DNA of 64,000 bases from Thermaerobacter sp. FW80 (GTDB taxonomy: Bacteria; Bacillota; Sulfobacillia; Thermaerobacterales; Thermaerobacteraceae): the NCBI RefSeq assembly GCF_004634385.1, contig NZ_CP037895.1, forward strand, positions 781,245-845,244. The letters are read 5' to 3'. How positions within the stretch are numbered: position 1 is the first letter of the stretch; every line of letters starts with the position of its first letter. This document shows positions 7,971 to 19,836 of the stretch, piece by piece. A program made the position numbers and the translations under genes. The notes under the pieces are model-generated. The model saw nothing but the letters and a program-made list of their open reading frames with translations, had not been told where the DNA came from and searched no databases.

Positions 7971-8212
7971 ACAGTTTGGACAGGGAGGGTCGCCTCTATG
8001 CGGAACCCGCGGGGTGGGGCGGCCGGGGCCGGCCACGGGGGAGTAAAGCAGAGCCGCTGGGGCCACGGGGATGGCCGGGGCTCGTCCGGGGGAAGGGCGG
8101 CGACGTCATGCCCGGCCCGGCGCGGGGGCCGCCGAACCGCGAGCACGCCGCTCCGGGGCAGGCGGCGCCCCTCACCCGGGGCGGGCGAGGGGCCGCGGAC
8201 CGGGCCGCCGCG

Positions 8213-8269
8213 GGCCTCCGTCAGGGCCGCAGGCCTCCGTCAGGGCCGCGGGCATCCGTCAGGGGCGCG
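8213..8269. repeat. Three 19-bp tandem repeats over the ispDF stop codon
   Basis: Units at 8213-8231, 8232-8250 and 8251-8269 share the core CCGTCAGGG. The third unit holds the ispDF stop (8259-8261), and the other two repeat the same TCA triplet, that is, extra TGA codons beyond the gene end. Confidence 0.85.
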
Positions 8270-9713
8270 GCGTGATGAGCGCCACCGCCAGCGCGGCGAT
8301 GCCCTCGCGGCGGCCGGGGAAGCCCAGTCCCTCGTTGGTGGTGGCCTTGATCCCCACCTGGGTGGGCGGCAGGCCCAGGGCGCCGGCCACGGAGCGACGC
8401 ATGGCCTCGACGAAGGGCGCCAGGCGGGGCTCCTCGGCGACGACGGTGACGTCCACCTGCGCCGGCTGCCAGCCGTGCCGGTGGAGCAGCGCCACCACCT
8501 CGGCGGCCAGCGCGGTGCTGGCGGCCCCGGCCCAGCGCGGATCGCCCGGGGGGAACCAGTGGCCGATGTCGGGCAATCCCGCCGCGCCGAGCAGCGCGTC
8601 CATGGCCGCGTGCAGGATCACGTCGGCGTCGGAGTGGCCGGCCAGCCCGCGCTCCGCCGGGATGGGCACACCGCCCAGCACCAGCGGGCGTCCTGCGGCG
8701 AACCGGTGGACATCGTAGCCCAGGCCGATCCGGAAGGACGGGACCGGTCCGGTGTCCCGCGGATCGCCGGCCCCCTCCGCCGCGGCGGCCGGCGACGCCG
8801 ACGCGGCGGCGTCCAGCCAGTGCTCGGCGACGGCGAAGTCCGTGGGCCAGGTCAGCTTGAGGTTGGCCGGGTCGCCGGGGACCAGCGCCACCGGCACCCC
8901 GAGGCGCTCCAGCAGGGAGGCGTCGTCGGTGAAGCCTCGCCAGCCGTGGCGGCGGGCCTGCTGGTGAGCCGCCCAGAGCCGCTGGAAGTCGAACCCCTGG
9001 GGGGTCTGCACCGCCCGCAGGCGGTGGCGGGGCAGCGTGGCGGCCACCCACTCCACGGGCCCCTCGCCCGGCGGGACGGCGTCGGGCTCCGCCCCGGACC
9101 CGCCGGTGGGGACACCGGGCTGTGGGCTCTCGGGCGCGGCGGGGGCTGCGGGTGCGCCGGGACGACGGCCTTCGTCCGCGGCGCCCGCGGCGGCGGACGT
9201 GGAGCCCGCCGGCTCCACGTCCGCCGCCGCCACCGCCTTGATGGTGTCGCCGACGGGGACGGCGGGGACCGCCGCGCCGTACCGCCGGGCGGCCGCCAGC
9301 ACCCGCGCGACCAGCGCCGGCCTCGCCAGCGGCCGCGCGGCGTCATGGACCAGCACCCATCGCGGCGGACGGGACCCGGCGGCGAGATGGGCCAGGGCCG
9401 CGTACACCGAGTCCTGGCGCTCCTCCCCGCCCTCCACCAGATCGACCGCCATGCGGGCGGGCAGCCACGGCGCCACCCGCTCCTGCCAGAGGGGACGATC
9501 GGCGCCGCGCAGGGCCACCACCGCCCGCGGCACCCCGGCGGCCGCCAGGGCGGCCAGGGCGTGGGCCAGGACGGGTCGCCCCCCCAGCTCGCGGAAGACC
9601 TTGTTCACGCCGCCGCCGACGCGGACCGAGCGCCCGGCGGCGGGCACGACGGCGGCCACGTCGGCCAGGGCCTCCCCGGCGCCGACCGCGGCCGGTTCGT
9701 CCCGACCGGTCAC
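8259..9713 (-). CDS. ispDF: Bifunctional IspD/IspF (MEP isoprenoid pathway)
   Basis: 484 residues. The N-terminal cytidylyltransferase IspD (about 20-310) has VVPAAGRSVRVGGGVNKVFR, HDAARPL and QTPQGF. The C-terminal cyclase IspF (about 325-484) has GYDVHRF, GGVPIPAERGLAGHSDADV and IKATTNEGLGF, with the zinc-binding D-x-H. The fusion joins steps 2 and 4 of the MEP pathway; Bacillus has separate ispD and ispF. A disordered insert of ~60 residues interrupts IspD before VEWVAATLPRH and is encoded by DNA containing an 18-bp perfect hairpin (9189-9228). GTG start at 9711-9713 overlaps the stop of the upstream PIN gene as GTGA. Confidence 0.94.
   Translation of the reverse strand: MTGRDEPAAVGAGEALADVAAVVPAAGRSVRVGGGVNKVFRELGGRPVLAHALAALAAAGVPRAVVALRGADRPLWQERVAPWLPARMAVDLVEGGEERQDSVYAALAHLAAGSRPPRWVLVHDAARPLARPALVARVLAAARRYGAAVPAVPVGDTIKAVAAADVEPAGSTSAAAGAADEGRRPGAPAAPAAPESPQPGVPTGGSGAEPDAVPPGEGPVEWVAATLPRHRLRAVQTPQGFDFQRLWAAHQQARRHGWRGFTDDASLLERLGVPVALVPGDPANLKLTWPTDFAVAEHWLDAAASASPAAAAEGAGDPRDTGPVPSFRIGLGYDVHRFAAGRPLVLGGVPIPAERGLAGHSDADVILHAAMDALLGAAGLPDIGHWFPPGDPRWAGAASTALAAEVVALLHRHGWQPAQVDVTVVAEEPRLAPFVEAMRRSVAGALGLPPTQVGIKATTNEGLGFPGRREGIAALAVALITPRP
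9189..9228. repeat. 18-bp perfect hairpin inside ispDF
   Basis: Arms 9189-9206 and 9211-9228 pair without mismatch around a CGCC loop. It encodes the AAADVEPAGSTSAAA part of the low-complexity insert in the IspD domain. Confidence 0.9.
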
Positions 9714-10822
9714 GGCGCGGCCCGGCCCATCACCTTGGGCCGCGCGAAGATCATCCGCCCGGCTGCGGTCTGGAGCACGGTGGAGACCTCCACGTCGATG
9801 CGCTGGCCGATGTAGCGCTTGCCGCCCTCGACCACGATCATCGTGCCGTCGTCCAGGAAGCCGACGCCCTGGCCGGCCTCCTTGCCCTCGCGGATGATCT
9901 GGACCTGCATCGCCTCGCCCGGGAGCACCACCGGCTTGACGGCGTTGGCCAGCTCGTTGACGTTGAGCACGGGCACGCCCTGCAGCCCGGCGATCTGGTT
10001 GAGGTTGTAGTCGTTGGTGACCACCTTGCCGTTCAGCCGCCGGGCCAGGCGCAGGAGCTTGCTGTCCACGTCGTCGCCTTCCACGTCGCCCTCGTAGATC
10101 TCCACCGGCACCGGCGACTCCTGCTGCATGCGACGCAGGATCTCCAGCCCCCGCCGGCCCCGGCTGCGCTTGAGGGCGTCGGCCGAGTCGGCGATGCGCC
10201 GCAGCTCCTCCAGGACGAACCCCGGCACCACCAGCGTCCCCTCGAGGAAGCCGGTCTCGACCACGTCGGCGATGCGCCCGTCGATGATGGCGCTGGTGTC
10301 CAGCACCTTGTACGCGCCCGGCGGGGCCGCGCGGTCGCGATCGCGGTTCCGCTCCCGCTCCCGGCCCGGCCGGGACAGCGCCGCCACCAGGTGGACCAGG
10401 TCGTCCCGTCGCTTGACCGCCACCACGGCCCCGAGGTACGCCAGCAGCACCGCGAAGATCGGTGGCAAGAACGGCCCCACCACGGGGACCAGACCCAGCG
10501 GGCCGCTGAGCAGGTTGGCGATCACCAGGCCCGCCACGAGCCCCAGGACGCCCGCCAGGGTGTCCTGGATGGGCGTGCGCACCAACCGCGCCTCGACCCA
10601 CTGGGTGAACTGCACCACCTGCTGCCAGAGGCGCTGGGCCGCCGCGTACCCGCCGAGGCCGCCGAGCAACAAAAAAAGAACCATGAGTCCGTACGTCCAA
10701 TGCCGCGGCAGCTCGGCGAGGATGCGCAGCGACTCCTGCTGCAGCAGCCCGTAGTAGGCCAGCCCGAAGCCGCCCAGGGCGCCCAGGGCGGCGAAGGCCA
10801 GCCGGATGGATCGCAAGCGCAC
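9710..10822 (-). CDS. PIN/TRAM membrane protein (YacL family)
   Basis: 370 residues. Four hydrophobic segments fill the first ~135 residues (for example WTYGLMVLFLLLGGLGGYAA). A basic linker follows, then a PIN domain starting VLDTSAIIDGRIADV, with acidic residues D, E and D (GDVEGDDVDSKLL, TNDYNLN) for metal binding. A C-terminal TRAM-like segment ends the protein (GFLDDGTMIVVEGGKRYIGQ). The family sits between disA and ispD in Bacillus (yacL); a nuclease role is likely from the fold. GTG at 10820-10822 is chosen because GAGAGGAG lies 9 bases upstream. Confidence 0.9.
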   Translation of the reverse strand: MRLRSIRLAFAALGALGGFGLAYYGLLQQESLRILAELPRHWTYGLMVLFLLLGGLGGYAAAQRLWQQVVQFTQWVEARLVRTPIQDTLAGVLGLVAGLVIANLLSGPLGLVPVVGPFLPPIFAVLLAYLGAVVAVKRRDDLVHLVAALSRPGRERERNRDRDRAAPPGAYKVLDTSAIIDGRIADVVETGFLEGTLVVPGFVLEELRRIADSADALKRSRGRRGLEILRRMQQESPVPVEIYEGDVEGDDVDSKLLRLARRLNGKVVTNDYNLNQIAGLQGVPVLNVNELANAVKPVVLPGEAMQVQIIREGKEAGQGVGFLDDGTMIVVEGGKRYIGQRIDVEVSTVLQTAAGRMIFARPKVMGRAAP

Positions 10823-11085
10823 GCATCCCGTCTCCTCTCTCCGCACCCGGTCCCGTCGCCCCACCCGTCCCGGATCCAGGGCGTGCCGCCGCCGGCAGCC
10901 GCCCCGCGCGGTCCGCGGCGCCATCGCCTGGGGGTGCGATCGCCCTGCCTGTGGGCGGACCCGCATCGCCCCCTCCACAGGGGGTTCGCCGACCGCCCCG
11001 CCCTTTCGGCGGGTGGTGCCCCACCTTCCGGTGGCGCCCACGGGCGGCGCCACCCGCGGTGGACGGCGCCGGCCACCCCGACCCG

Positions 11086-11883: not shown

Positions 11884-11926
11884 AGCCGCAGGCCGTGGGG
11901 ATGCCCGTGCAAGAGGGGTGACGCGG

Positions 11927-12322
11927 TTGAAGGACCTGTTGGTGGATGAGTTCCAACACGCCGTGGCGGACTGCTTGATCCGGCACCGCAGCGTGTTGGA
12001 CGTCCTCTCCAAGTTCCAGGAGGCCAACGCCCGCGTACACCGTGCCGTAGCCAAGGCCGTCACCGGTTGCGGCTGCATCAGCATCCACGCCCGGCGTCCA
12101 CAGATCCCCGCCCACAGCACCCTGCGCGACCTCAAGACCCTCATGGACGACCACATCGACGGCGAGCTCTGCGAGAGCTGCCGCGAAGCGCTGGAAGAGG
12201 AGCTGGGCAAGCAGCTTTTTTATTTGGTCGCCCTGTGCAACCTGTTCGACATCAACACCTTCGATCTGATCATCAAGGAGAACCGGAAGCTGTCCACGCT
12301 GGGGATGTACCACATCTCGTGA
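11927..12322 (+). CDS. Conserved Firmicutes protein, unknown function
   Basis: 131 residues starting (M)KDLLVDEFQHAVADCLIRHR. Cysteine pairs CGC (about residues 48-50) and CESC (about 82-85) suggest a metal site. The C-terminal half is all helix and ends TLGMYHIS. I recall near-identical small proteins in clostridia beside carD, annotated as DUF1573 or MazG-like, but cannot confirm the family here. TTG at 11927 is preferred over GTG at 11918 because AAGAGGGG lies 8 bases before it. Confidence 0.75.
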   Translation: MKDLLVDEFQHAVADCLIRHRSVLDVLSKFQEANARVHRAVAKAVTGCGCISIHARRPQIPAHSTLRDLKTLMDDHIDGELCESCREALEEELGKQLFYLVALCNLFDINTFDLIIKENRKLSTLGMYHIS

Positions 12323-12728
12323 CCGTGGCCGGCCGGGGGGCCTCGGTGGGCACGCCGGCGGCAGGCAGGCCGTGGCGTGGGCGCCGGCCGCGACGCGCCC
12401 GGTGTGGGCGGCGCCGAGAGGCGCGCCGCGGCGCAGGGCGCCCGCGGACGCATGGCCGGGTGGAGACGGCGGCGAGAGGCGCGCCGGGGGTGGGACGTCT
12501 CCGGCGCAGGCATGCCCCTGCGCAGCGGGCACGCCCCCGTGGCCCGGCGGCGATCGGCGAGCCGTGGGGTGGGGCCCCGCGGGCGCACATCTGCGTGGCC
12601 CCGCGGCGAGAGGCGACCCGTGGGGCGGGGCGCCCGCGGATGCGCGCCCGCGCGGTCGCGGCGGCACGGGGGCGGTGGCGGGGGCCATGGCGGGAGGGTC
12701 GGCGCACGCTGTGCCCACGGGGAATACA

Positions 12729-12765
12729 CCCGCGGGGCGGCACCGGCCGGGTGCCGCCCCGCGGG
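12729..12765. repeat. 16-bp perfect hairpin
   Basis: Arms 12729-12744 and 12750-12765 pair perfectly around GGCCG. It may act as a terminator between the converging 11927 gene and cysH; no T tract follows. Confidence 0.8.
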
Positions 12766-12777
12766 TTCGCCCCCCGG

Positions 12778-12815
12778 CCGGCATGGCGGAGGGCGCGGGC
12801 CCTCCGCCATGCCGG
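12778..12815. repeat. 17-bp perfect hairpin
   Basis: Arms 12778-12794 and 12799-12815 pair perfectly around GCGG, 13 bases after the preceding hairpin. The arm segment GGGCCCTCCGCCATGG recurs nearly intact near 12840. Confidence 0.8.
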
Positions 12816-13041
12816 CGAGGACGTGCCGGCGAGGGATCGGGCCCTCCGCCATGGCTCCAAGGCGCCACGGGGAGGCCCCCCGCCACCGCTCGCGGGACCG
12901 AACCCCCGCTCCGTCCAGAGGGCGTGCCGGCCGAGCTCAGGCGTGGAAGCCCGGCTCCGTCACCCCCCTGCCGATGCCCGCCGTCGCCTCACCACGTGGA
13001 CGCTTGTCGCCCTCTTCCTGCGCGGAGGCCCGCCGCCTTCT

Positions 13042-13764
13042 TCACGCGTGGAGGCCGCACTCCGTCTTGGTGAAGCCCGCCCAGCGCCCGGCCCGCGGGT
13101 CCTCGTCCGGCCCCACGGGACGGGTGCAGGGGGCACACCCGATGCTGGGATAGCCGCGGTCGTGGAGGGGGTTGTAGGGGACCCCGCGCCGCAGGACGTA
13201 GTCCCAGAGCTGGTTGCGCGTCCAGCGAGCCAGGGGGTTGACCTTCACGAGGCCGAACCGGCGGTCGGCCTCGATCACCGCCGTGCGGGCCCGCTGCGGC
13301 GTCTGCTCGCGGCGGATGCCGGTGATCCAGGCGTCGAAGCCGCGCAGGAAGCGGCGGAGGGGTTCCACCTTGCGCAGCCGGCAGCACAGGTCGGGGTCAC
13401 GGGCCCAGAGGTCCGGCCCGTAGCGGGCGGCCTGTTCGTCCACCGTCAGCGCCGGCTTGACCGCCACCGGCTCGATGCCGTAGTACTCGGCCACGCGCCG
13501 GCAGGTGGCGTAGGTCTCGGGGAAGTGGAGGCTGGTGTCCAGGTAGAACACCGTCACCGCCGTCAGCCTGCCCGCGGCGGCCGCCATGTCGATCAGGGCC
13601 ACGTCTTCCGCCTGGAAGCTGCACGCCAGGGCTACGCGGCCGGCGAAGCGGTCCAGGGCCCAGGCCAGGATCGCCTGGGGCGCGGCCTCCTCCAGCGACC
13701 GGGCCAAGGTCGCGATCTCCTGCTCGGAGAGCGCCAGGGGGCGTTCCGTCCGCGCGTCGTCCAT
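13042..13764 (-). CDS. cysH: Phosphoadenylyl/adenylyl-sulfate reductase
   Basis: Reduces activated sulfate to sulfite. 240 residues from the ATG at 13762-13764, which has GGGAGG 8 bases upstream. The pairs C127-C128 and C210-x2-C213 are the [4Fe-4S] ligands of APS-type reductases, and the catalytic cysteine is C236 in ECGLH near the C-terminus. The CC...CxxC signature favours APS over PAPS as substrate. The gene is alone here, without sat or cysC, between a repeat-rich spacer and disA. Together with cysE it points to assimilatory cysteine synthesis. Confidence 0.93.
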   Translation of the reverse strand: MDDARTERPLALSEQEIATLARSLEEAAPQAILAWALDRFAGRVALACSFQAEDVALIDMAAAAGRLTAVTVFYLDTSLHFPETYATCRRVAEYYGIEPVAVKPALTVDEQAARYGPDLWARDPDLCCRLRKVEPLRRFLRGFDAWITGIRREQTPQRARTAVIEADRRFGLVKVNPLARWTRNQLWDYVLRRGVPYNPLHDRGYPSIGCAPCTRPVGPDEDPRAGRWAGFTKTECGLHA

Positions 13765-13773
13765 CGTCGCCAC

Positions 13774-14327
13774 CTCCCAAGGTCCCGGGCCCGGATCGGG
13801 GCGCCGGTGCTCCCGGCCGCCCCGTTCGATCCCCGTCCATGGGGAGGGACGGGGCCGGGGGCGACGGCGGCCGGCGACCGGGGCCGGAAGGGCCGGGTGA
13901 GGGCAGCCCGCGCGAGGCCGGGACGGCTGCGCAGCAGGCTGGGCAACCGGCCCGCACCCACCCGCATTAGCCTAGTGCCGCACCGGGGCAAGGGTGCAGG
14001 GGGTCCACGGGGTTCCCGCTCGCCGGCGTGCGTTCCCGGGGGTGCGGACGGGCTGTCGACCGACGTGGAGCGTGCAGGACGGACGTCAACGTGGCGGGCG
14101 GACGTGGAGTGCGGACGGCGCGCCGCGGACGGAGCGCCCGGGAGCGTGGGGGCGCAGACGGAGCGCCCGCGAGGATTCGGCGTCCCTGGCGGCTGCGGTG
14201 GTCCGCCCCCCGGCCGGGGGCGGACCACCGCAGGGCGGAAGGAACCCCCGGTCGCCCGCGTCCCGCCCGGGCCGGGACCCGACACGGCGGGGCCCCCGGA
14301 CGCAGGGTCCCGGGCGCCCCGTGCGGA
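13774..14327. other. Gene-free spacer between cysH and disA
   Basis: About 550 bases with no supportable gene. Degenerate tandem repeats lie at 14063-14173 (including GACGGAGCGCCCGGGAG and GACGGAGCGCCCGCGAG at a 29-base step) and a large hairpin at 14193-14233. No convincing promoter for cysH was seen. Confidence 0.6.
14193..14233. terminator. 18-bp hairpin downstream of disA
   Basis: Arms 14193-14210 and 14216-14233 pair perfectly around a 5-base loop, about 95 bases after the disA stop. It probably ends the ctsR-to-disA transcript, although no T tract follows. Confidence 0.55.
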
Positions 14328-15395
14328 TCAAGGGCGTCGCTCCAGGAAGGCCTGGTCTTGCAGACGGCGCAGGCCGTCCTTGATGGTGCGGGCGCGGACG
14401 CTGCCGATGCCCTCCACCGCGTCCAGCTGGTCGACGGTGGCCGCCAGGATGCGCGGCAGGTTGCCGAAGCGGCGCACCAGGTTCTCGATCACCGCCGCCG
14501 GCAACCGCGGCACCTTGTGGAGGATGCGGTAGCCCCGCGGCGTCAGCGGCGTCTCGTCGTCCGGCGGGGCGGCGTAGCCCAGGCAGCGGACCACCGCGCG
14601 GCGGTCGGTGAGCTCCTCGGGCGACAGCCGCCGCAGGGCGAGCATCGCCTCGCCCTCGCCGTCGGGGTCGGCCACGTAGTCCCGGATCACCAGCCGGTAC
14701 TCCTCGTCCACGCCGCTGCGCAGCTCGTCCAGCTGCAGGCGCACCAGGCGGCCCTCGGTGCCCAGCTCCACCGCGTCGCCCTCGATCTCCCGGCCGATGC
14801 GCCGCACCTGCTCGGCCCTCCCCAGGACGGAGGCGACATCCCCCGCCGTCACCAGGTCCTCGAACTCCAGGACCGTCAGGTGGCCCAGGGCCTGGAGGAA
14901 CACGGCCCGGTAGCGCTCCAGCGTGCCCAGGGCCTGGTTGGCCTTGGCCAGCATGAGCGCGGGATCGCGCAGCACGTAGCGCAGCTCCCCGCGGTAGACG
15001 GTGATCACGTTGCGGCGCTGCGAGATGGCGATGACCAGGGCGCCGGTCTGCCGGGCCATCCGCTCGGCGGTGCGGTGGCGGATGCCCGTCTCGAAGGAGA
15101 GGACCCGCGGGTCGGGGATCAGGTGCACGTTGGCGCGGACGATGCGGCGGGCGTCGCTGGAGAGGATGATGGCGCCGTCCATCTTGGCCAGCTCGTAGAG
15201 ATGGGCCGGCGTGAGCTCCACGTCCAGCTCGAACCCGCCCGAGCAGAGCTCCATCACCTCGGGTCCGTCCCCGACGACGATCAGGGCGCCGGTACGGGCG
15301 CGCAGGATCTGGTCCAGCCCCTCCCGCAGGCGGGTCCCCGGGGCCAGGCGCCGCAGGGCCGCCAGCAGGGCGTCCGGGCGTTCCTCGGCGGTCAT
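14328..15395 (-). CDS. disA: Diadenylate cyclase DisA
   Basis: DNA-integrity scanning protein that makes c-di-AMP. 355 residues. The N-terminal DAC domain has DGA (73-75) and RHR (106-108, in GIRHRTAERMARQTG). A helical linker follows, and the C-terminal helix-hairpin-helix domain (VIENLVRRFGNLPRILAATV, then VEGIGSVRARTIKDGL) binds branched DNA. ATG at 15393-15395 with GAAGGAGG upstream. It follows radA as in Bacillus, at the end of the ctsR operon. Confidence 0.97.
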   Translation of the reverse strand: MTAEERPDALLAALRRLAPGTRLREGLDQILRARTGALIVVGDGPEVMELCSGGFELDVELTPAHLYELAKMDGAIILSSDARRIVRANVHLIPDPRVLSFETGIRHRTAERMARQTGALVIAISQRRNVITVYRGELRYVLRDPALMLAKANQALGTLERYRAVFLQALGHLTVLEFEDLVTAGDVASVLGRAEQVRRIGREIEGDAVELGTEGRLVRLQLDELRSGVDEEYRLVIRDYVADPDGEGEAMLALRRLSPEELTDRRAVVRCLGYAAPPDDETPLTPRGYRILHKVPRLPAAVIENLVRRFGNLPRILAATVDQLDAVEGIGSVRARTIKDGLRRLQDQAFLERRP

Positions 15396-17298: not shown

Positions 17299-17325
17299 GG
17301 CCCGGTAAGCGGGCCGGCGGCCCGC

Positions 17326-17335
<10 letters not shown>
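17299..17335 (-). terminator. 17-bp hairpin over the clpC stop codon
   Basis: Arms 17299-17315 and 17319-17335 pair perfectly with a 3-base loop and include the TAA stop at 17326-17328. No T tract follows, so it may attenuate rather than end transcription into radA. Confidence 0.6.

Positions 17336-19836
<2,501 letters not shown>

Follow-up and report, generated by a model that had tools for sequence, protein, structure and literature searches.

The spacer downstream of cysH in Thermaerobacter sp. FW80 opens with what is probably a decayed 26-nt tandem array that starts inside the gene

The spacer that follows cysH in Thermaerobacter sp. FW80 contains an imperfect second version of the end of this gene, which raises the question of how a short piece of coding sequence came to lie beyond the stop codon. 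The window analyzed here, a stretch of 64,000 nt, carries cysH on the minus strand, and a preliminary description had reported a decayed copy of the gene's 3' end at 12937-12961 that matches 13042-13066 at 20 of 25 positions. The gene itself shows both hallmarks of cysH, a PAPS_reduct domain (PF01507, E = 1e-48) and a C-terminal ECG(I/L)H motif, the open reading frame ending in KTECGLHA; its product scores 265 bits with NF002537 (cut-off 154), and the orthologues of congeners are 84-88% identical. Comparing minus-strand 13066-13042 (GACGGAGTGCGGCCTCCACGCGTGA) with 12961-12937 (GACGGAGCCGGGCTTCCACGCCTGA), we reproduced the ungapped 20/25 match exactly. The two segments are separated by 80 nt and translate as TECGLHA-stop and TEPGFHA-stop, respectively. 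The ECGLH motif had therefore been described as echoed in the spacer, which holds as a likeness of sequence but not as a statement about function: the echo lies after the stop, the catalytic Cys is lost and the repeat unit of 26 nt breaks the frame.

Against dinucleotide-shuffled DNA, the echo is better than expected from shuffled sequence. For the fixed cysH 25-mer, the probability of at least 20 matches was 0.0002 in the 141 bp downstream, and none of 5000 shuffles of the 705 bp downstream reached 20. Because P was 0.01 (141 bp) and 0.064 (705 bp) when any 25-mer from the last 100 nt of cysH was allowed, the single match alone is suggestive, that is, moderate evidence once it is corrected for the search. 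Values of this size, which hold if the 25-mer is not taken as fixed beforehand, are what a chance resemblance in spacer DNA of 80% GC, picked from many coincidences across 64 kb, could appeal to; it could also appeal to the fact that, if a simple 105-nt copy is assumed, its other 80 nt match at 22 of 80 positions, the background level. Real DNA speaks against it. In a null in which the 203 predicted gene ends of 404 kb of the same genome were paired with the wrong spacers (41,006 mismatched pairs), 0.025 cases of at least 20/25 are expected per 203, whereas two were observed, cysH included.

Further evidence comes from periodicity. The three best gapped placements of the cysH end finish 26, 53 and 105 nt past the stop, corresponding to one, two and four 26-nt steps if a single inserted base is allowed for. 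The summed scores of the top two and of the top three gapped matches were equalled in 0 of 400 shuffles, and the second and third matches alone gave P = 0.0025. Autocorrelation within 12931-13066 peaked at 105, 26, 52 and 79. Tandem Repeats Finder (TRF), unprompted, assigned 13008-13068 a period of 26 nt (2.3 copies, score 64); stop-crossing arrays with a period of at least 15 at the TRF score seen for cysH occurred in 0 of 2000 shuffles. Run on a 200-nt fragment by itself, TRF reported nothing, so that detection depends on flanking sequence. In a period test over four successive units, with the best period chosen freely from 18-32, the locus scored 63 at period 26, compared with 44.9 ± 2.2 for shuffles (maximum 57 of 5000). 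This is 8 sd beyond the shuffles with the look-elsewhere effect over period included, and cysH ranked first of 203 gene ends. Together with the mismatched spacers and the unprompted TRF report, this result leaves the chance reading largely refuted, and we regard it as very unlikely.

Because the copies of the cysH 3' end are spaced by multiples of about 26 nt, we conclude that the spacer past cysH opens with a tandem array and not with a lone displaced copy. We put at about 0.86 the probability that this is a decayed array of roughly five units (13066-12936), the first of which is the live cysH end. The parts of the locus are as follows.

13042-13773, minus strand: cysH, phosphoadenylyl-sulfate / adenylyl-sulfate reductase; its final 25 nt serve as unit 1 of the array
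13041-13066, minus strand: unit 1, the functional cysH 3' end with its stop
13015-13040, minus strand: unit 2, matching the cysH end at 17/25; pairs with unit 1 as the TRF 26-nt repeat
12988-13014, minus strand: unit 3, 27 nt, with TCCACG.GTGA kept; the gapped match ending 53 nt past the stop
12962-12987, minus strand: presumed unit 4, decayed beyond recognition (alignment score -2) and placed from spacing only
12936-12961, minus strand: unit 5, matching the cysH end at 20/25; this is the reported echo
12891-12915, minus strand: possible further remnant (GACGGAGCGGGGGTTC...), a weak match of 16/25 to unit 5, 6 nt out of register (P about 0.035)

The 26-nt register is thus supported by units 1, 2, 3 and 5, unit 4 being unrecognisable. 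The weaker echoes that had been noted between the gene end and its best copy are indeed present, as the TRF repeat and the gapped matches ending 26 and 53 nt past the stop. One could instead propose a single displaced duplication, whether a tandem copy of 105 nt or an insertion of 25 nt, given that no other copy is nearly as good as the echo and that its offset is exactly 105 nt, in frame. Four units plus one base account for the in-frame offset, which carries no coding meaning. We rejected a simple 105-nt tandem copy because the 80 nt before the echo agree with the corresponding cysH codons at only the 22 of 80 positions given above and instead hold two further partial copies at 26-nt spacing; a single duplication is accordingly unlikely. 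The preliminary claim of a decayed copy is supported in the form of a multi-unit array, with slippage-type tandem amplification at a 26-nt period explaining the copy.

As a repeat, the array is head-to-tail at a constant period (26 nt, beyond all 5000 shuffles), as in a minisatellite, but high similarity among all units is wanting: they differ by 20-35%, being 65-80% similar to unit 1, and one presumed unit cannot be recognised. We therefore class it as a decayed array and not as an intact minisatellite. The TGA of cysH lies inside unit 1 and is repeated in unit 5, as in repeats that overlap stop codons, and the cysH array belongs, in decayed form, to a known kind, the stop-overlapping bacterial minisatellites. 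Of 88 VNTRs in Yersinia pestis, 10 overlap a stop codon; over half of the VNTRs are intergenic, and those within ORFs have units divisible by three (PMC3689786). These arrays share with that of cysH the similar-sized tandem units that include the stop at a gene's 3' end, the small effect expected on the protein, and a mainly intergenic placement with those inside ORFs in frame. They differ in that VNTR units are nearly identical whereas the cysH units have decayed to 65-80% likeness, and the comparison for cysH covered one genome per species. The TAACTGA direct repeats of Beggiatoaceae are likewise tandem and intergenic, and some of them extend over the upstream gene's stop codon (PMC4679880). 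There, however, one heptamer recurs at many loci, mostly towards start codons and possibly with a regulatory role, whereas in FW80 each locus has a unit of its own, derived from local sequence. A decayed pseudogene fragment would show the same coding-like similarity to a functional gene, but the similar segment here is only about 25 nt long and tandem, and neither another part of cysH nor a remnant of sat (sulfate adenylyltransferase) is detectable.

The TCCACG and TGA parts are better kept in units 3 and 5 than the rest, which might be expected if the repeat served as an RNA structure, a binding site or a back-up stop signal under selection. We consider this extremely unlikely. The repeat is absent in congeners, its units have diverged by the 20-35% given above with unit 4 no longer recognisable, and translation has already ended at the first stop. 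A known RNA element was rejected, with no Rfam match at 12100-14400. We also dropped an in-frame C-terminal extension of cysH by readthrough, for which 34 codons are open past the stop, because the 26-nt unit breaks the frame and nothing is conserved. The array is thus without any sign of function and presumably has none.

The spacer in which the array lies differs from that of related genomes.

12323-13041, no strand: convergent spacer of 719 nt, without the sat gene that three congeners have at this position
12728-12766, minus strand: terminator-like hairpin, core GGGGCGGCACC...GGTGCCGCCCC, with 17-nt arms that are 100% complementary

In three congeners, sat separates this cysH from the same convergent gene, which lies at 11918-12322 in FW80. 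The convergent gene encodes a 134-aa protein that is conserved throughout the genus (91-93% identity) and has no Pfam or NCBIfam match. The sole sat match in the FW80 genome lies in a longer ORF next to a second cysH (G000:C1:2825994-2829350). Because cysH also adjoins sat in order- and class-level relatives (G006, G007), sat has apparently been lost from the cysH locus in the FW80 lineage, and we take this as the likely direction of change; it is not certain, because in a same-family draft (G004) cysH faces the convergent gene with no sat between. The hairpin core is also found past sat in the congeners (post-sat spacer matches, E about 1e-4). Retention of this post-sat hairpin suggests that the deletion removed roughly the interval between the cysH stop and the old terminator. 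A sat remnant was rejected: tblastn of sat against the spacer gave a best E of 0.31, and none was detectable. Apart from the cysH array, the same spacer contains degenerate repeats at 12409-12665 (four 24-nt copies and two 63-nt copies).

Neither the echo nor the 26-nt period is present in the three congeners. Four-fold-site divergence from congeners in cysH is 36-39%, compared with 20-35% among the units; the differences between units do not exceed this divergence, which makes it possible that the array was born after separation from the congeners. Native flank is predicted to follow the last copy. This prediction was not confirmed with the nearest congener: the flank after unit 5 had no significant match to its post-cysH sequence (best P = 0.12). 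A search for copies of 12880-13041 elsewhere in the genus returned weak matches only (best E = 0.0025).

Replication slippage is the usual explanation for such arrays. We propose that head-to-tail amplification of a segment of about 26 nt produced about five units. This segment would have consisted of the final eight codons of cysH with its stop, plus one or two bases beyond. The simplest routes would be replication slippage and unequal recombination, with slippage as the presumed molecular event. The amplification would probably have taken place in the lineage of the FW80 species, after its separation from the congeners compared. Duplication across the cysH end would be tolerated because the first stop still works; units past this stop would have been free to mutate under neutral decay, while selection on cysH would have kept unit 1 intact. 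Loss of sat would have left unconstrained DNA between cysH and the old terminator, where an array can persist; here the relative timing of sat loss and the birth of the array is inferred. The locus may thus serve as a small, clear example of bacterial spacer growth, in which frame-blind tandem duplication from inside a gene end is followed by decay.

The preliminary description had further suggested that slippage or duplication of gene ends repeatedly feeds the spacers of this genome. We counted short imperfect tandem arrays (period at least 15, TRF score at least 50) in 404 kb made up of the window and stretches L119-L135. Array density was 0.45 per kb, about eight times that of shuffled sequence (0.057 per kb), and 0.14-0.37 per kb in congeners, among which it differs threefold. 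Genes were called by a simple home-made codon-usage method, so that the counts by gene context are approximate: 118 of 182 arrays (65%) lie mostly in DNA predicted to be noncoding, which makes up 25% of the sample, and the period is divisible by three in 49 of 64 coding arrays versus 44 of 118 noncoding ones, close to one third. This pattern is as expected for frame-blind birth filtered by selection.

A second array crosses a stop codon 4.8 kb from that of cysH.

8207-8270, minus strand: parallel array of 19 nt x 3.4 with 91% matches, containing the stop of an ispD/ispF-region gene (ispDF)

This array, also absent in congeners, is younger than the cysH array, and the window therefore shows a young and an old stage side by side. 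It bears out the part of the suggestion that concerns gene ends giving rise to arrays. The part that makes gene ends a special source fails: five stop codons lie inside arrays in the 404-kb sample, versus 5.7 under random placement, and gene ends were therefore rejected as favoured sites. Echoes of gene ends in the 203 downstream regions show a slight excess over shuffles apart from two outliers. It is very doubtful that tandem amplification seeded at gene ends acts as a systematic source of spacers once a gene is lost in this high-GC thermophile lineage, with the sat deletion having freed the cysH end to seed its spacer. The cysH array is unsurprising in itself, and the high array density in the genus could suit the measurement of array birth and decay.

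Two further gene ends were noted. A two-copy array with a 20-nt unit at 17299-17340 spans the stop of a large ClpC-like gene; its repeat unit resembles a hairpin, and it may therefore be a terminator rather than a minisatellite. In stretch L126, a 24/25 copy of the last 25 nt of a predicted minus-strand gene (9793-10824) lies 64 nt downstream of that gene.
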